A stretch of DNA of 22,888 nucleotides from a virus. Under the pieces are notes generated by a model. That model saw only the letters and a program-made list of their open reading frames with translations. It ran no database searches and was not told where the DNA came from. Shown in pieces: positions 1-7,614 of this stretch (positions within the stretch are counted from its first letter, which is position 1; each line of letters begins with the position of its first letter). The position numbers and the translations under genes are program-made. Location: positions 1 to 22,888 of the IMG/VR virus record IMGVR_UViG_3300034375_008445. One strand, given 5' to 3'.

Positions 1-587
1 ACTCCCCAATCATTAGCCATTCCATTACCAGCAGAAATCTCAATACACTCTTGGCCAAGTGAAGGGTTAATATATTGATATTTTATTGGAGTATTATTGG
101 TCTTTATTGATAGTGACATAGTTTCTTTGTCACTCAGTGACATAGTTTTAATGTCACCCTGCGACATATCTTTAATGTCACCCTGTGACATAGTTTTAAT
201 GTCTTCAACCTTAAAGCTCGGTTTAGATTTAGCTTTGCTCTTATATCGTTTGATCTTAGTTGGCTGATATTCTTGAATGATCTTAATGTTCACTTTGACC
301 GGTGGCGCTGTTCTCTTGGTCGCTTTAAAAACATCTCGCTCAATAAGATTAAGTTTCTCAAGTTGAGCAATGGCTTTTGTCACTGTTGCCTGAGTTGTTC
401 CGCAAAGATCAGCAAGATCTCTCTGTGAAACAACCTTAAAACCGGTTGAGCTTTTCCAAGTCGACCAATCAACTCGGCTCAAGATGCCAATCAAGACAAG
501 CTTTGCTGAAGCTGTTAAATCTCTTCTTCTCATTACTTGCTGGCTTAACTCATCCTTTAGAGCAAGGCCATTCTTCTGTGTAGTCAT
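1..587 (-). CDS. Replication initiator, lambda O-like winged-helix protein (partial, runs off left edge)
   Basis: The frame is open from an ATG at 587 to the window edge, giving 195 codons. AGGGAG at 595-600 (minus strand) lies 7 nt upstream of the ATG. Residues about 22-85 read as a winged helix-turn-helix: LTASAKLVLIGILSRV, then SQRDLADLCGTTQATVTKAI as the recognition part, then QLEKLNLIERDVF as the wing. This is the N-terminal DNA-binding fold of phage replication initiators such as lambda O and of RepA-like plasmid proteins. A basic stretch (IKRYKSKAKSK) follows, then a four-fold 8-residue repeat (DIKTMSQG-like) encoded by the iteron array. The C-terminal part, expected to contact a helicase or its loader, lies outside the window. 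The role as initiator is inferred from the fold plus the embedded repeats; a plain transcription regulator is the alternative. It is divergent from the early operon. Confidence 0.75.
   Translation of the reverse strand, partial: MTTQKNGLALKDELSQQVMRRRDLTASAKLVLIGILSRVDWSTWKSSTGFKVVSQRDLADLCGTTQATVTKAIAQLEKLNLIERDVFKATKRTAPPVKVNIKIIQEYQPTKIKRYKSKAKSKPSFKVEDIKTMSQGDIKDMSQGDIKTMSLSDKETMSLSIKTNNTPIKYQYINPSLGQECIEISAGNGMANDWG
61..205. other. Candidate phage replication origin (iterons plus AT-rich element)
   Basis: The iteron array at 113-205 is directly followed, in the sense of the initiator gene, by an AT-rich stretch at about 61-112 (roughly three quarters A+T, with runs such as TTAATATATTGATATTTTATT). 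Lambda ori has the same order: iterons within O, then an AT-rich unwinding element further along the gene. That this is an origin is an inference from layout; nothing in the sequence alone proves replication starts here. Confidence 0.55.
113..205 (-). repeat. Four tandem 24-bp palindromic iterons inside the initiator gene
   Basis: Four units start at 113, 137, 161 and 185, an exact 24-bp period. Each 21-bp core reads GTGACAT, seven bases, ATGTCAC, an inverted repeat. Units 2 and 4 are nearly identical; unit 1 has TTGTCAC in the right arm, unit 3 begins GCGACAT, and unit 4 ends ATGTCTT. Three-base gaps (tca, cct, cct) separate the cores. Because 24 is a multiple of 3, the array stays in frame as an 8-residue peptide repeat. 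The arrangement resembles the four iterons of lambda ori within gene O, so I infer binding sites for the initiator. Confidence 0.85.
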
Positions 588-646
588 GTCAGTTCTCCCT
601 TGTTGGATATATAGGTTAAAACAGTATCTAACATATTTTTTCTAAT

Positions 647-688
647 TTGACATCAATTTTATTTGACATCAAGTTTTTTTGACATTAA
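647..688 (+). repeat. Three spaced TTTGACATYAA repeats, likely operators
   Basis: TTTGACATCAA occurs at 647-657 and 662-672, and TTTGACATTAA at 678-688, with starts 15 and 16 bp apart. Each contains TTGA-CA-TCAA, a short imperfect palindrome suited to a dimeric repressor. They sit between two divergent genes, and the third overlaps the -35 box of the plus-strand promoter. They share TGACAT with the iterons at 113-205, so the initiator could bind here too. The three-site arrangement recalls lambda-type operators. Confidence 0.6.
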
Positions 689-706
689 GTTGATGAAGTG
701 TTAAAT
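679..706 (+). promoter_or_regulatory. Sigma-70-type promoter of the early operon
   Basis: A perfect -35 hexamer TTGACA lies at 679-684. Sixteen bases later is TTAAAT at 701-706, which matches TATAAT at 4 of 6 positions. Transcription would start near 712-714, leaving a leader of about 20 nt before the ATG at 734, with AAGGAG at 723-728. The third TTTGACATYAA repeat covers the -35 box, so binding there should repress transcription. No equally convincing promoter was found for the divergent minus-strand gene. Confidence 0.6.
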
Positions 707-733
707 AATTAACCTGTTAGACAAGGAGACAAT

Positions 734-934
734 ATGAAGTCAACAGCAAGAACAAGGTTGAAAGAATCAATCAAGTTAAAGGCACTCGCTGAGAGAGCTG
801 ACATTGATCCAGCATCTTTATCTCGTATCATTCACAATCGACAAAACTTAAGTCCTGAACTTGCTCAGAAGCTTGCTGATTGCGCTAATCAGCTAACAGG
901 CAGTGAACAATTTAAACCAACTGATTTTCTATAA
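734..934 (+). CDS. Cro/YdaS-like helix-turn-helix repressor, 66 aa
   Basis: This is a small basic protein. An HTH is visible at about residues 16-48: LKALAERADI, a turn, DPASLSRIIHNR as the recognition helix, then a supporting helix SPELAQKLADCAN. The size and the C-terminal tail (GSEQFKPTDFL) resemble phage Cro and YdaS-type regulators. AAGGAG at 723-728 supports the ATG at 734. It is the first gene of the early operon, directly behind three operator-like repeats, so autoregulation and control of the divergent initiator gene are the likely jobs. The fold is clear; the binding site is inferred. The next gene starts 12 nt after the stop. Confidence 0.8.
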   Translation: MKSTARTRLKESIKLKALAERADIDPASLSRIIHNRQNLSPELAQKLADCANQLTGSEQFKPTDFL

Positions 935-946
935 GGACCAACTGAC

Positions 947-1123
947 ATGGATACTAAGACACTATCAATCGCAATGCGAATCGAATTACACCGCGCCAAG
1001 TTTGCTGACATCTATAACGCTGAGAATGACGACCAAGAGCAAGAGCAAGATGACGTTGCTCAATACGAAGAAGAACTCAATGCAGAACTCGACAAAGAAG
1101 CTGCTCAATCACTAAACAACTAA
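947..1123 (+). CDS. Small acidic protein, 58 aa, unknown function
   Basis: It begins MDTKTLSIAMRIELHRAKF and is followed by a very acidic, Gln- and Glu-rich stretch (NDDQEQEQDDVAQYEEELN). It looks wholly helical, with a basic amphipathic first third and an acidic second part. AAGGA at 933-937 lies 9 nt upstream of the ATG. The gene is 12 nt behind the repressor and 16 nt before the next gene, so it belongs to the early operon. I do not recognise it. Its size, charge and position fit the small accessory proteins of early phage operons, but no function can be read from it. An overlapping frame from 903 has no comparable start signal and was not called. Confidence 0.65.
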   Translation: MDTKTLSIAMRIELHRAKFADIYNAENDDQEQEQDDVAQYEEELNAELDKEAAQSLNN

Positions 1124-1343
1124 TCAAAGGAATACTGACATGACTCCAGACAAAAAACTCGCTCTAATTTGTGCCCTTCTTAATGATGAAAAGCTTAATA
1201 AAATCCAAAACAAGCTTTGGACTAAGCTTTGGGAAGCTCCACACAATTTTTGTTCTGACGAATGGAAACTTTTAACAGCTATTAAAAACGAAATCTTAAG
1301 AAGAAACTAATCAAAGGAAACACTGACATGACTCCAGACAAAA
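1118..1343 (+). repeat. Direct repeat of a translation-start region (1118-1155 and 1305-1343)
   Basis: The two copies, 187-188 bp apart, each run from the stop codon of one gene into the first codons of the next: AACTAATCAAAGGAA, a short variable part (TA or ACA), then CTGACATGACTCCAGACAAA. They differ by about one indel and one or two substitutions over some 38 bp. Each carries a stop, an SD (AAAGGA) and ATG ACT CCA GAC AAA. This suggests a duplicated cassette whose downstream coding part was later replaced or diverged. Confidence 0.85.
1140..1310 (+). CDS. Small hypothetical protein, 56 aa
   Basis: It begins MTPDKKLALICALLNDEKL and ends EILRRN, and appears helical throughout. Two Trp (LWTKLWEAP) and two Cys are present. 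AAAGGA at 1126-1131 provides a ribosome site. The first five residues (MTPDK) and the whole upstream leader are duplicated in front of the next gene (1328), so the two genes share a copied translation start, although the proteins diverge afterwards. It is part of the early operon. The function is unknown; the open frame, spacing and SD are the only support. Confidence 0.6.
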   Translation: MTPDKKLALICALLNDEKLNKIQNKLWTKLWEAPHNFCSDEWKLLTAIKNEILRRN

Positions 1344-1627
1344 CAATCAAAGACGATCTAATCGTTGGATGCTTCGCTTTACTTTTAATCATTCCGGTCA
1401 TTTGGGTGGCAATCTCTCATGGTCAATTTGGATATGCTCCAGCTGATGAGTGTGCCAACATTATCAAGGATGGCATGAGCTACACTAAGAAAAAATACTT
1501 AATTAATGCCAAGCCAACCTATCCAAACATTCGTTCTTGGTGTGAGAAGAACCTTGATGATTGGAGACCAAAGGTAAGAAAAGCAATAAACTACAAAGAA
1601 CCACCACATCAAAACTATCACTACTAA
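1328..1627 (+). CDS. Single-span membrane protein, 99 aa, unknown function
   Basis: A charged N-terminus (MTPDKTIKDD) precedes one strong hydrophobic segment at about residues 11-29 (LIVGCFALLLIIPVIWVAI). A polar tail of about 70 residues follows, with two Cys (DECANI and RSWCEKN) and many Lys and Tyr. The expected topology is a short cytoplasmic end, one inner-membrane span, and a periplasmic or outer tail that could form a disulfide. AAAGGAAA at 1313-1320 is the SD. It is in the early operon, ahead of the recT-like gene. Early phage membrane proteins of this kind can act in superinfection exclusion or other host takeover, but that is speculation here; no family is recognised. Confidence 0.7.
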   Translation: MTPDKTIKDDLIVGCFALLLIIPVIWVAISHGQFGYAPADECANIIKDGMSYTKKKYLINAKPTYPNIRSWCEKNLDDWRPKVRKAINYKEPPHQNYHY

Positions 1628-1653
1628 TCAAAACAACTCAGGGAGAAAACACT

Positions 1654-2751
1654 ATGTATAAATCAATCTATATTCCAAAAGACATCAACGAAGCCATTCA
1701 AATCGCTCAACTACTCGACAACAACAGCGCTCAAGATCTTGTCCGTTGTCATGCTGCCTTTGGTCATCACTTCAATGGCGATATTGGTCTTGTTCAAACT
1801 CAAAGCTTTTGTCTGCGCGGTAAGCCCTCACTTAATGCTGATGCTATGGCAGGTATTTGTCGCAACTCTGGCTTGGTCCGCTTCATGCGAATCTCATCTT
1901 GGACCGCTCAACAATGTACGATGGAGTTTGCTCGCACAGATGAACCGGCTGACATTGTCCATACTTTCGTTTATACAATCGAGATGGCTCAAGCTCAAGG
2001 ACTTACAAACAATCGAAATTGGCGACAAATGCCCTTGCAGATGTTGCGCTCTCGTGTCTTGACTATGGGCCTTCGTGCTGTGTTCCCGGATGCTGTTAGC
2101 GGTATTTACTCAGCGGATGAGATTGCAGACAACACAAAGATGAGTGATGATGAACGAGCACAGATCAGCGCTGACTCACTCGGTGAAGAGATTCGTCCAC
2201 CAGCACCACAACAGCAAGCGCCACAACGACAAGCGCCAAAGCAAGCTCCAAAGCAACCAGCACCAAAGCAAGAAGCACCAAAAAAAACTGAAGTGAAAAC
2301 AGTTTGGTCCTTTGGGAGTGAGCAAGAGTTTTGGGAAGTGATTGACGAGCACAACATTTCAAGAGAGGAAGCTCAAGGTCGCTTGAATCGTCAAAAGCTT
2401 GATCCTGCTGACATGAATCCTGAAGAGTTGGAAGATGCTTTCTACAGCTTTATCAAACATGATGTCTTGAGACGAGCTTGGACTGATCTTCAAGATTGGT
2501 GGAAGCATGACAATGATGAAGCTGTTCAAGGTGTTCATGCTGGCTTTGTTGCTCAATATCCTGTACTTGCTGATTGTCCGCCAAACATCTATGGCCCGCG
2601 AATTAATGAGCCTGCTTATGCTGAGCTAGTCACTGAATTGAATCGAGTACCGGAGCAATACATGAATGAAGCAAAGAAGCTTCTCACCTATATGAAGAAG
2701 AATGATTGGAGCAAGGTCAATGAGTTCTTTGATCTATGCTTCAATGACTAA
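1654..2751 (+). CDS. RecT-type single-strand annealing protein, 365 aa
   Basis: Residues about 1-165 follow the RecT pattern. There is a segment of the type GKPSLNADAMAGICRNSGL, where RecT proteins have G-x-P-x-L-x-x-x-x-M and a following SG. Then come EMAQAQGL, where the family has a mid-domain acidic/AGL segment, and QMPLQMLRSRVLTMGLRAVF with PDAVSGIYSADE, matching the P-x-x-M-L-R-x-R ... FPD ... G-x-Y-x-x-E signature. Such proteins anneal complementary strands in phage recombination and replication. A Pro/Gln/Lys-rich linker spans about 180-213. A helical C-terminal part of about 150 residues (SREEAQGRLNRQ, LRRAWTDLQDWW) follows, which I do not recognise. GGGAGA at 1641-1646 supports the ATG at 1654 over an in-frame TTG at 1561 inside the previous gene. 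No partner exonuclease is in the window. The 3' end overlaps the convergent deaminase gene by 18 bp. Confidence 0.75.
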   Translation: MYKSIYIPKDINEAIQIAQLLDNNSAQDLVRCHAAFGHHFNGDIGLVQTQSFCLRGKPSLNADAMAGICRNSGLVRFMRISSWTAQQCTMEFARTDEPADIVHTFVYTIEMAQAQGLTNNRNWRQMPLQMLRSRVLTMGLRAVFPDAVSGIYSADEIADNTKMSDDERAQISADSLGEEIRPPAPQQQAPQRQAPKQAPKQPAPKQEAPKKTEVKTVWSFGSEQEFWEVIDEHNISREEAQGRLNRQKLDPADMNPEELEDAFYSFIKHDVLRRAWTDLQDWWKHDNDEAVQGVHAGFVAQYPVLADCPPNIYGPRINEPAYAELVTELNRVPEQYMNEAKKLLTYMKKNDWSKVNEFFDLCFND

Positions 2752-3180
2752 AGTCTCAACTTGATTCTCTTTGAGATAGTGAAGACCAGCGCCACCTATA
2801 TTTGGTGAATATACTCTGACTATTCCGCTGTGATGAATGGCCTTTGCACACATAAGGCAAGGATCACAGTTTACAATGAGCCACTTCCCAAGAGTAGAAT
2901 TGCCGGTCCTTGTAGCGTTGAGGATAGCGTTCATTTCAGCATGGTGGCATCCAATATCGTTTTGAGTTCCGCTGACAATGTGATCAGTGATTCGCTTGCA
3001 AGTTGAGCCACCACAAAGCGCCTTAGTCGATCCTCTTGGTGTTCCATTGTAGCCTTCGCTTATGATCACGTTTGTTGAAGGATCAACGATTACAGCGCCC
3101 ACTTTCCTTCTTGGACAAGGAGAGCTTGACGCTATGAGGTCACATTGCTTGATTCTTACTTGAAGGTGTTTAGCCTTCAT
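2734..3180 (-). CDS. Deoxycytidylate (dCMP) deaminase, 148 aa
   Basis: It would convert dCMP to dUMP in the cytoplasm, feeding thymidylate synthesis for phage DNA. The zinc-dependent cytidine deaminase signature is complete. HAEMNAI at residues 80-86 supplies the zinc His and the proton-shuttle Glu, and CDPCLMC at 105-111 supplies the two Cys of P-C-x-x-C. A CGGSTCKR motif upstream (56-63) with a following His matches the extra metal site usual in dCMP deaminases. Length is normal for the family. The ATG at 3180 is chosen over a TTG at 3195, as both lie within the upstream gene, which ends at 3170; the SD is weak, suggesting coupling. It is the last gene of the late operon, an unusual place for a nucleotide enzyme. 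Confidence 0.92.
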   Translation of the reverse strand: MKAKHLQVRIKQCDLIASSSPCPRRKVGAVIVDPSTNVIISEGYNGTPRGSTKALCGGSTCKRITDHIVSGTQNDIGCHHAEMNAILNATRTGNSTLGKWLIVNCDPCLMCAKAIHHSGIVRVYSPNIGGAGLHYLKENQVETLVIEA

Positions 3181-3472
3181 AAGTACCACTAGCAAAGCTC
3201 ATGGGAGTGTCGACAAACTTAAGGTTTTTTTTTCCAAGGAGCAATCTCATTTGAGCTTCAAGCCTAGCATTTGACTCCATGAGTTGATTGAGCTTGGTAT
3301 TAATATCATTCAACTGACTATCCACTTGAACACTCTTTGTTTCAAGCGTTGCGATCTGTTGCTTCATCCGACCAAGCTCTTCTGACTTTTGAGCCTTGTC
3401 TTTGGTGGTCGAGTACCAAAAAGCAGCTAAGGCTAAGAGTTGACCAACATCTATCGGATTCATGCTGTCCAT
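3170..3472 (-). CDS. N-terminally anchored coiled-coil protein, 100 aa
   Basis: A short hydrophobic segment (VGQLLALAAFWYS, about residues 9-21) is followed by a long polar helix at about 25-80 with heptad-like spacing (ELGRMKQQIATLETK, LNDINTKLNQLMESNARLEA). It should be a membrane-attached coiled coil. GGAAG lies just before the ATG at 3472, which starts 2 nt after the preceding stop; the end overlaps the deaminase start. It is one of three small membrane or coiled-coil genes behind the fibre module. A lysis-related role (spanin or holin accessory, by analogy with XhlA or Rz) is possible but rests on topology only. A run of nine A on the coding strand near 3224-3232 is a potential slippage spot, but both alternative frames close quickly. 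Confidence 0.65.
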   Translation of the reverse strand: MDSMNPIDVGQLLALAAFWYSTTKDKAQKSEELGRMKQQIATLETKSVQVDSQLNDINTKLNQLMESNARLEAQMRLLLGKKNLKFVDTPMSFASGTYEG

Positions 3473-3474
3473 AA

Positions 3475-3927
3475 TTACTTCCCTATGAAAAAGAGTGTTG
3501 TTGCTGAAGCTGACACAATAGCAAGACCACCGGCAACATATAAAAGTATTTTATTATACTTTTCCGCTTCGCTCAATGCTGTTTCAGTTTGCTTCAATCT
3601 GTGCTCATAAGCTTGGATCAATTCAACCTGACTAGACTCACGATTTATCGCAATGTCCAACTGAGTCTTCATTCCATGCATACACTCTTTGACAGACTCT
3701 TCAATCGCCCATTGACAAAGATCTGTTGAGCTTTCAAGCGCTCCCTTAAGTCTCACAAAGTCATAAACTGACAAGGCCATCTTGATCGTTTTGATCTCAT
3801 CACCTGGCTTCAGCTTCTCACCTTGAATGATCGGAATACCTTTTCCAAGCCAAATTGAAGTTGGTGGTATATCACTTAACGGAGCGATTGGAGTGAGGAA
3901 GACAATTATGCTTAAAAAAAAACTCAT
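3475..3927 (-). CDS. Small exported or membrane protein with terminal hydrophobic segments, 150 aa
   Basis: The N-terminus (MSFFLSIIVFLTPIAPLS) looks like a signal peptide or anchor. The middle, about residues 85-125, is a charged helix (QVELIQAYEHRLKQTETALS). The C-terminus is a clear membrane span (ILLYVAGGLAIVSASATTLFFI) ending in GK. An exported, C-terminally anchored coiled coil resembles a unimolecular spanin, but the N-terminal lipobox Cys expected of one is absent, so the assignment stays open. GAGGAT at 3934-3939 is the SD, and the gap from the previous stop is 3 nt. Nine consecutive T follow ATGAG at the start of the coding strand, a possible slippage site for polymerase or sequencing. 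The function is unproven. Confidence 0.65.
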   Translation of the reverse strand: MSFFLSIIVFLTPIAPLSDIPPTSIWLGKGIPIIQGEKLKPGDEIKTIKMALSVYDFVRLKGALESSTDLCQWAIEESVKECMHGMKTQLDIAINRESSQVELIQAYEHRLKQTETALSEAEKYNKILLYVAGGLAIVSASATTLFFIGK

Positions 3928-3930
3928 CGC

Positions 3931-4227
3931 TTAATCCTCACAAGTGATCGCTTTGAAGTTCTCAAGCGCTTTCCTTGTCTGATCATCACAGACTTTTTGA
4001 CAATCAATAACAGCATCCCCAACTTTGGTGATCTTGCACTCGGTAAGCTTTTGATTCAGCTTCAGCGCTTTCTCTGTCGCTTCATGCTCTTTGACAATAT
4101 AGTCAGCACAAACGACCGCTGGATCTTGGTGGCCAAACATATAGCCAACGACCAAAGCCAAGACGATACAAGCGCAAGCGATGACATAGGGAATTTGATC
4201 TCGGTTTGTTAATAGTTGTTCAATCAT
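3931..4227 (-). CDS. Rz-like single-span membrane protein, 98 aa
   Basis: From ATG 4227 the protein starts MIEQLLTNRDQ, then one strong span at about 12-32 (IPYVIACACIVLALVVGYMF), then a periplasm-facing helical tail rich in Lys, Glu and Cys (EHEATEKALKLNQKLTEC, DCQKVCDDQTRKALENF). This N-in, C-out topology with a helical tail is that of an inner-membrane spanin (Rz) or a small holin-accessory protein. Five Cys in the tail could form disulfides. The start is uncertain: ATGs at 4260 and 4287 lie inside the upstream gene and would put a charged stretch before the span; none has a good SD. The 4227 start is 4 nt after the previous stop, so coupling is plausible. Confidence 0.6.
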   Translation of the reverse strand: MIEQLLTNRDQIPYVIACACIVLALVVGYMFGHQDPAVVCADYIVKEHEATEKALKLNQKLTECKITKVGDAVIDCQKVCDDQTRKALENFKAITCED

Positions 4228-4231
4228 TATT

Positions 4232-5592: not shown

Positions 5593-7614
5593 CTAGATAA
5601 TATACCAGCTAGATGTACCATCGCTAACAATAGTCAAAGCTTGGTATTGTACATTAAGCTGATATGTTAAACTAGCATCTATAGTTTCAGTTGAATTCGC
5701 ATCTACTGTTAAAGTATATGAGCTAGATAGATTTTTAATAACATACTTATATCCCGATCCAACAGTACTTGCGCTCGGAAGATTCACATTAATAGATGCA
5801 CCAGAATCAATTAAAAATATTTCTTCTATTCCGGTGTTTGTTGATATTGTATAGTCAGTAGTTTGAGACGTGCTTACTGATGTTATATTAGGCTTTGCAC
5901 CGCTTGCGGGTGCTACCGCTTGCCATTCACTAGCAGTGTTATCATAAGTAAGCACATGACCATCAATACCAGCGCCTGCTGTGAAACTTACATCGCTCAG
6001 ATCGTTCAAGCTTTCGCTTGTGATGTTTGAGATAAAAGCGCTTGTTGTGTTATTCATCGCTGACAAATCGAGTGAACTGATATTGCTTGGGACCAAAGCT
6101 TTGTCTGTTGCTGTTCCTGCACCCGCTTCCGCATTGGTCGCAATTTCAATTATACCAGCTGTTGTCTCGCTTGCAGGACTTGCGCTTGGTACTGCTTCGG
6201 CTCCCCAAGATGTCGTTGCATGATCATAGGTCAGAACATAGTTGTCAATTCCGGCTCCGGCTGTGAATGATACATCACTTAGATCATTAAGGCTTTCGCT
6301 TGTGATGTCACTAATGAAAGCGCTTGTGGTGTTGTCCATTGCTGACAAATCGAGTGATGAAACGTTGCTTGGAACTAGCGCCTTATCTGTTGCTGTTCCT
6401 GCTGTCGCTTCCGCGTTCGTAGCAATCTCGATGATGCCTGCTGTTGTCTCGCTTGCTGGACTTCCACCGGGAACCGCTTCCGCGCCCCAAGAGCTAGTTC
6501 CGTTGTCATAAGTCAGAACATAGTTGTCAATCCCTGCGCCTGCTGTGAAGCTCACATCACTCAGATCATTAAGGCTCTCGTTTGTGATGTTTGAAATGAA
6601 TCCTGAATCATTGTCAAAGGTGCTTAGATCAATATGGCTAAGATTGGCAGGAGTCAGAATCTTATCATTAGCAGTCGCGCTTGTTGCTTCTGCATTTGTA
6701 GCAGTCTCTAAAATACCTGCTGTGCTGTGGCTTGCTGTTGGGATGTCACCGACAGTGATGAAAGCGCTTGTTGTGTTGTCCATTGCTGACAAATCGAGAG
6801 AACTGATATTGCTAGGAACCAAAGCTTTATCGGTCGCTGTACCTGCTCCGGCTTCTGCGTTCGTAGCAATCTCAATCACTCCAGCCACTGTTTCACTTGC
6901 CGGTGTTGCGCTTGGTACTGCTTCAGCTCCCCAAGTTGATGTTCCGTTGTCATAGGTCAGAACATAGTTGTCAATACCTGCTCCGGCTGTGAAGCTTACA
7001 TCACTCAGATCATTAAGGCTCTCACCTGTGATGTCTGAAATAAAAGCGCTTGTTGTATTGTCCATCGCTGACAAGTCAAGTGAACTGATATTGCTTGGAA
7101 CCAAAGCTTTGTCGGTCGCTGTGCCTGCTGTCGCTTCGGCATTGGTCGCGATCTCAATGACTCCAGCCACTGTCTCGCTTGCCGGTGTATCTGTATTATC
7201 AATCTTGTCGATCTTGCTATTGGTGATTGTGCCACCCATGTCTTCATTGATGAGCAAGTGATCACCGACAGCCCAAGTCTGCCCATAAATTGTGCCTGCT
7301 GTGTCGATGATATAGAAGTCACCTTTTTCGGCATTGAGAAGGCTTGGAGTTCCTGCTGTTGCATTGAAAGCGCCTTTGTATTCAAGGCCACCTGTGAAGT
7401 CTAAAGTTGCAAAGCTTAGAGTCCCGGTTCCGTTAGTTTGGAGAACTTGATTTTCTGAACCATCGAGAGTTGGAAGACTGTACTCGGTTCCAATAGTGAC
7501 TCCACCAACTGTGATGGCGTTTGTGGTTGTGGCTCCTCTTGAAGTGACATCATCAAGATTGTCAGTTCCTGCGCCACCGCCTGCGCTTGCGAATCCAAAA
7601 GATTTAATTGCCAT
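5593..7614 (-). CDS. Repeat-containing tail fibre protein, 673 aa
   Basis: AAGGAG upstream supports the ATG at 7614. Residues 75-130 (EYKGAFNATAGTPSLLNAEK, then GDFYIIDTAGTI, then WAVGDHLLINED) match the small domain common near the N-terminus of phage fibres. Residues 143-568 are five repeat units beginning (S/T)PASET-AGIIEIATNAEA, followed by ATDKALVP. This is the phage tail-fibre repeat type (Pfam Phage_fiber_2 pattern: G-hydrophobic-I-x-L/I-A-T-x-x-E ... D-x-x-A-V/L-x-P). Four units add the linker SLNDLSDVSFTAGAGID-x-x-VLTYD. The C-terminal 600-673 (IEEIFLIDSGASINVNLPSA, then GYKYVIKNLSSS, then SSWYII) is a typical fibre end domain. It is the adsorption fibre, probably a trimer, and is followed by its likely accessory proteins. 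Confidence 0.88.
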   Translation of the reverse strand: MAIKSFGFASAGGGAGTDNLDDVTSRGATTTNAITVGGVTIGTEYSLPTLDGSENQVLQTNGTGTLSFATLDFTGGLEYKGAFNATAGTPSLLNAEKGDFYIIDTAGTIYGQTWAVGDHLLINEDMGGTITNSKIDKIDNTDTPASETVAGVIEIATNAEATAGTATDKALVPSNISSLDLSAMDNTTSAFISDITGESLNDLSDVSFTAGAGIDNYVLTYDNGTSTWGAEAVPSATPASETVAGVIEIATNAEAGAGTATDKALVPSNISSLDLSAMDNTTSAFITVGDIPTASHSTAGILETATNAEATSATANDKILTPANLSHIDLSTFDNDSGFISNITNESLNDLSDVSFTAGAGIDNYVLTYDNGTSSWGAEAVPGGSPASETTAGIIEIATNAEATAGTATDKALVPSNVSSLDLSAMDNTTSAFISDITSESLNDLSDVSFTAGAGIDNYVLTYDHATTSWGAEAVPSASPASETTAGIIEIATNAEAGAGTATDKALVPSNISSLDLSAMNNTTSAFISNITSESLNDLSDVSFTAGAGIDGHVLTYDNTASEWQAVAPASGAKPNITSVSTSQTTDYTISTNTGIEEIFLIDSGASINVNLPSASTVGSGYKYVIKNLSSSYTLTVDANSTETIDASLTYQLNVQYQALTIVSDGTSSWYII
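5911..7188 (-). repeat. Five tandem repeat units within the tail fibre gene (about 282 bp each, one short)
   Basis: Units start at fibre residues 143, 237, 295, 385 and 479, with spacings of 94, 58, 90 and 94 residues. Long units are two parts: an EIATNAEA-type fibre repeat ending in SAMDNTTSAFIS, and a SLNDLSDVSFTAGAGID linker. Unit 2 lacks the second part and passes through ITVGDIPTA into the divergent unit 3. Similarity holds at the DNA level, so homologous exchange could change the unit count. Confidence 0.9.

Follow-up and report, generated by a model that had tools for sequence, protein, structure and literature searches.

We propose that the initiator gene at the left end of this environmental phage DNA contains a replication origin of the lambda design, in which the gene product would use its N-terminal winged helix to bind iterons lying in its own gene and would recruit a helicase loader. 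We put the probability of this reading at roughly 85%. The window, which means the whole stretch of DNA analysed here, is the complete IMG/VR virus record IMGVR_UViG_3300034375_008445 of 22,888 bp. The proposed origin is well supported and of a known kind, and the new part is the set of iteron specificities. An earlier note on this DNA had suggested that it may be a new type of origin built to the lambda design, which is fair if what is new is the sequence specificities and the design is lambda-like.

The iteron array is located on the minus strand, which is the coding strand of the gene. The upstream-most iteron 1 is AAGACATTAAAACTATGTCAC (185-205, two mismatches to GTGACAT-N7-ATGTCAC), followed by iteron 2, GTGACATTAAAGATATGTCGC (161-181, one mismatch), iteron 3, GTGACATTAAAACTATGTCAC (137-157, perfect), and iteron 4, GTGACAAAGAAACTATGTCAC (113-133, one mismatch), which adjoins an AT-rich element. 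These 21-bp sites follow each other at an exact 24-bp step, equal to eight codons each. The four copies and the exact period given in the earlier note were found again, but its statement that each copy has the full pattern was slightly too strong, because only one unit is perfect and the others carry 1, 1 and 2 mismatches. At up to three mismatches the pattern matched seven times in the window against 1.16 expected, a number reached by 0 of 100 dinucleotide shuffles, and at up to two mismatches all four matches were inside the array. The four-unit array is real and chance is ruled out. In each genome checked, iterons with at most two arm mismatches were confined to the initiator gene, except for one stray two-mismatch site apiece in contigs G003 and G007.

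The AT-rich element (54-113, minus strand) is the proposed unwinding region, with 72% A+T over 60 bp and a nearly invariant CTATCAATA at the iteron side. Direct counting gave 77% A+T for the 52 bp at 61-112, matched with the stretch of about 75% described before. By nearest-neighbour energies, 54-113 belongs to the least stable 0.7% of the 60-bp windows in this DNA, and in 10 contigs the element ranks in the least stable 0.04-1.9%. Cumulative GC skew of the relatives of 35-36.5 kb was monotone and tracked gene orientation, with no origin signal, so it speaks neither for nor against an origin at the array. The junction ACTATCAATAAAG (95-112) resembles, by eye, ACTATTACAAAAG of the lambda AT-rich region (L060:628-650).

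The replication initiator gene (3-587, minus strand) was assigned by PHROG profile matches. It is cut by the contig end, with 195 amino acids present and about 38 C-terminal residues outside the contig edge; the end of the gene and the loader-gene side are both off the contig. Profile search matched the protein with the replication initiation families PHROG 428 (E 5e-10) and 270 (E 1e-9), and also with the O-like PHROG 345 (E 2.5e-6). Among 16 family members, PHROG 270 was matched in 15, 428 in 13, and of the O-like families 678 in 10 and 345 in nine at E<=0.001. Pfam models matched helix-turn-helix families in the window initiator. Phage_rep_O (PF04492) scored 20.4 bits on it and did not reach the curated cutoff of 28.7, and this model matched five of the 16 family members at E<=0.01.

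The winged-helix DNA-binding domain covers residues 8-105 (273-566, minus strand), according to the helix-turn-helix Pfam matches and to an AlphaFold2 model for which the near-identical complete protein of L005 was the query, with a 16-sequence alignment. Most 10-residue blocks in residues 11-110 of the model had pLDDT of 82-92 and one block had 66, and the chain was disordered past about residue 128. The repeats are in frame within a winged-helix gene as noted earlier, with the winged helix confidently modelled in the N-terminus. The putative recognition-helix segment is GTTQATVTK, residues 63-71 (375-401, minus strand; modelled helix 66-78), placed by the model and by its divergence together with the iterons. 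Among viral models (BFVD), Foldseek matches included one annotated "Putative replication protein O" from a lambdoid phage (E 4e-5) and another named "Bacteriophage lambda, GpO, N-terminal" (E 1.7e-4). Whole-chain TM was low, as order is confined to the winged helix. Against solved structures, Foldseek gave weak matches with CodY and MarR-type winged helices, and looking by sequence for solved structures, of either the initiator or lambda O, gave nothing useful. No relationship with lambda O was visible by profile comparison (hhalign probability 0.9%).

Scans of IMG/VR viral contigs identified 15 complete relatives, 13 clear and two distant (L029 and L047). The 13 closer relatives have at least 40% identity by the alignment's own count, most of them above 50%. 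Their complete initiators are 200-234 amino acids long, and those of the two distant ones 279-284. In the closer 13, the gene that directly follows codes for a DnaC-like helicase loader of the AAA+ type, which has a zinc-finger-like set of cysteines. The earlier note had left room for an unrelated regulator, an alternative which fails, since profiles of phage replication initiators match the complete protein and the DnaC-like loader gene stands next. Further relative scans returned the known contigs again and just two distant ones (L045 and L047), so the collected family is nearly complete for these contigs. The species genomes of bacteria and archaea, 84,980 in total, were scanned with the loader alignment and gave neither a relative nor a host. 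Known phages gave one weak initiator match, one weak capsid match and loader matches at 25-30% identity. The same phage group has DNA methyltransferase, thymidylate synthase and dCMP deaminase genes (L067:691-1416; L068:15678-16538; window 2734-3195). The window also has a large predicted tail-fibre-like gene (5593-7614) with several long near-identical internal repeats and self-similar blocks of 78-87%.

Inverted repeats are present in the same initiator linker in all 15 complete relatives. In the closer 13 they are 24-bp units with a step mostly of 24 bp and with different sequences, and L005 has one unit more than the window. The iteron classes are GTGACAT..ATGTCAC (window, L005), GTGATAG..CATCAC (L006, L007), GTGATAA..TATCA (L008, L024), GTGATAA..TATATCAC (L022), GTGACAA..GGTCAC (L020, L023), GTGACAT..GGTCAC (L021), GTGCTAA..TTAGCAC (L018, L025), GTGACAA..GGTCAG (L027) and GTGATAT..ATATCAC (L028). 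In the distant L029 and L047, inspection by eye showed other inverted repeats at the equivalent linker place. In L047 (1595-2446 of a 36,498 bp contig) the linker contains many CTGTCA-N4-TGACAG-like repeats at irregular spacing ahead of an AT-rich stretch, which looks like the same design built from a different unit. Most relatives also have a second inverted repeat, AGATCATTTACATAATGATCT, near the initiator 3' end, in codons for DHLHNDL (L006:3609-3629), a place beyond the left edge of the window. It shows both-sided changes in L006 and L021, its covariation score was attained in 7 of 500 shuffles, and it could be a regulatory hairpin or an additional binding site.

Binding of a winged helix to inverted repeats is also the mode of repressors, and the initiator fold is close to MarR-type regulators. 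The array might then be an operator, through which the protein represses or silences its own gene or handcuffs copies while replication starts elsewhere, and half-site-like TTGACAT repeats in the promoter region agree with this. We consider such a reading improbable, as the sites are deep in the coding region beside a conserved AT-rich element, the profile matches are with replication initiators and a helicase loader gene is next. Autoregulation by the array could occur as well, being compatible with origin function.

The recognition helix and the iterons co-diversify amid conserved surroundings. Between the window and L006, four of nine helix-segment residues differ, against 4 of 97 elsewhere in the domain (Fisher p 0.0015), and between L021 and L022 the differences are 5/9 against 9/97 (p 0.0018). 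In each of these pairs the two genes have iterons of different classes. In the control pair L020/L021, which shares the class GTGACA..GGTCAC, differences were not concentrated in the helix (p 0.37). DNA identity along the initiator gene dips at exactly two segments, the helix and the iterons; for window/L006 the successive values are 0.98, 0.97, 0.75 (helix), 0.82, 0.87, 0.64 (iterons) and 0.96. At helix position 66, genes of the main clade have Tyr where the sites read GTGAT (five genes) and Gln or Leu where they read GTGAC (five genes), and the chance of such a perfect split is 0.05 when it is collapsed to six lineages. L028 has 52% identity with the window outside the helix, yet carries a similar helix (TTQSTVCK) and similar GTGA(T/C)AT sites. 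A partial Mantel test of helix and iterons in 11 genes gave r 0.33 (p 0.04) with last units and r 0.19 (p 0.12) with typical units. As this correlation is modest at n=11, we rely on the symmetry and on the contrasts within pairs, and take the residue-base rule as a lead.

This joint shift also bears on whether the inverted repeats could work at the RNA level, forming hairpins or terminators either in the mRNA of the initiator or in an antisense transcript. There are two terminator-like matches on the plus strand within the array, and RNA stems would covary as well. However, the stems are short and broken by 5-7 nt, they recur at the exact 24-bp step, and an RNA role does not predict that the repeat sequence shifts along with a DNA-recognition helix. 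We regard the RNA explanation as very improbable, more so than an operator.

The conserved entity is the DNA site rather than the encoded peptide. The peptides encoded by the units diverge as much as the sites, with GDIKTMSQ, GAKESLAG and TTECGQEV at the equivalent place, and two units in L027 and one in L028 have a shifted reading frame, by which the peptide is changed and the DNA site is retained. The check on DNA-level conservation proposed in the earlier note thus came out in favour of the site, as homologues alter the peptide and even the frame but keep the inverted repeats. In a register test of dyad symmetry, with synonymous recoding by family codon usage as the null, symmetry beat recoding in all 14 genes tested, the observed level being reached by 2-73 of 2000 recodings each. 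Half-site positions 5 and 17 were T-A in six and C-G in five of 11 distinct last units, with no exception, and 1 of 500 shuffles reached this covariation score; overall the two positions were symmetric in 34 of 37 units. The left member of this pair mostly falls at the third position of a codon for Asp, where the synonymous choice thus follows a base 12 bp distant. The central A11 A12 was invariant in the 11 distinct last units. At the junction of the iterons and the AT-rich element, CTA TCA ATA is written with a single codon each in every gene having those residues, while only 2 of 36 conserved degenerate codons in the DNA-binding domain were equally fixed. Codon invariance was found in 7 of 14 columns of the C-terminal part, but this may come from recombination and shared recent ancestry and was left out as evidence. 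Lag-24 identity was also above the null, possibly from recent duplication, and the conclusion was made independent of it. A peptide linker grown by tandem duplication, with incidental DNA symmetry, would agree with tandem eight-codon units of changing copy number, but we give it hardly any credence, and the peptide-only reading was dropped, as it is contradicted by the unlike peptides at one place, the frame-shifted units and the recoding test.

Positions 913-22888 of the window, a length of 21,976 bp, match contig G004 (IMGVR_UViG_3300025653_003531) at 99.94% identity. At 129-912 there is a sharply bounded segment that takes in the Cro-like gene and promoter region as well as the winged helix and iterons, with its counterpart at G004:C1:28972-29833. 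For this segment blastn gave no match with G004, and forced alignment gave diverged homologues only. Positions 1-128, the end of the initiator gene, match G004 at 77%. L055 independently has the arrangement of the window over 1-4228 at 96%, its initiator being identical with that of the window in the aligned part apart from one extra 24-bp unit, which argues against chimeric assembly of the window. These alignments show helix, iterons, promoter and Cro-like gene exchanged as a cassette between otherwise identical phages.

The Cro-like gene is divergent and encodes a Cro/C1-type helix-turn-helix protein (734-934, plus strand; Pfam HTH_3, E 1.4e-7), in place of which G004 has a different helix-turn-helix protein. 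The intergenic promoter/operator region (588-733) has three TTGACAT repeats 16 bp apart (647, 663 and 679). These direct repeats (645-690) include the iteron half-site letters TGACAT and are not present in G004; they may equally be operators of the Cro-like protein. Several early genes share a leader GGA..ACTGACATG up to and including the start codon (583-601, 933-949, 1126-1142 and 1314-1330).

The proposed lambda-design origin can be compared with well-described systems. In lambda, the iterons are within the O gene and separate the N-terminal DNA-binding domain from the C-terminal part (PMC7466680, PMC6022878). The family shares with it the in-gene iterons in the linker after the DNA-binding domain, the inverted repeat of every iteron about a central A-tract (AAAA/AAA in lambda, A11 A12 here), the readily melting AT-rich element immediately downstream of the iterons, and the loader gene adjoining the initiator gene, which is seen here in relatives. 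Iteron copy number also varies between relatives in both, with four in lambda and six in Stx phages (PMC7466680). Lambdoid phages have O/ori specificities of their own. The lambda iterons are different, being ATCCCTC..GAGGGA of 18 bp with 20/24/23-bp spacing, compared with mostly strict 24-bp, eight-codon units here. The lambda loader is P and the loader of this family is DnaC-like AAA+, and the window protein is under the Phage_rep_O cutoff. Bacillus phage Palmer and Lactobacillus phage phiLdb have a similar pairing of O-like/DnaD-like initiator and DnaC-like loader, with loader identity of just 25-30%.

By this model, winged-helix dimers would bind each inverted-repeat iteron in their own linker-coding DNA, and the bound array would form an O-some-like complex which strains the adjoining AT-rich element. 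The element would open under negative supercoiling, the C-terminal tail would recruit the DnaC-like loader, product of the gene that follows, and the loader would put the host DnaB helicase onto the opened site. The analysis itself establishes the layout, the DNA-level constraint, the covariation of symmetric bases, the parallel divergence of recognition helix and iterons, the exchange of the cassette and, in relatives, the adjoining loader gene. We infer binding, dimerisation, unwinding, loader recruitment and origin activity alike, and the steps follow the lambda model of O dimers, O-some, AT-rich opening and DnaB delivery (PMC7466680, PMC6022878, PMC3349717).

In the replicon of PLE satellites of Vibrio cholerae, the RepA_N DNA-binding domain and the ori iterons covary and are swapped as a module, with the C-terminal domain conserved (PMC8263062). 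The module swaps are shared with the present family. PLE has an intergenic origin, semi-palindromic iterons of about 30 bp and a RepA_N initiator (PMC8263062), whereas the origin proposed here is in-gene and the variation extends to single recognition-helix residues. The window/G004 exchange parallels the RepA_N/origin swapping of PLE and the O/ori exchange in lambda hybrids. Such type-specific O/ori exchange was reportedly described for lambda hybrids by Furth and Yates in 1978, a study cited in PMC6022878.

About nine natural iteron variants, each sharing a gene with its expected reader helix, make a data set for the recognition code of winged helices. The window and G004 together are a natural hybrid, with one phage backbone and two replication specificities. 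The question of origin specificity is known from lambda/phi80/82 hybrids and from PLE satellites, and to our knowledge clean natural pairs for it are few. Our explanation is tentative and somewhat short of an even chance: helix and in-gene iterons may form a self-contained, fast-diversifying specificity cassette, exchanged along with the Cro-like regulator because a new specificity would let the phage evade satellites, decoys of the origin, resident prophages or nucleases aimed at origins. The window/G004 pair lets one ask why origin specificity diversifies.
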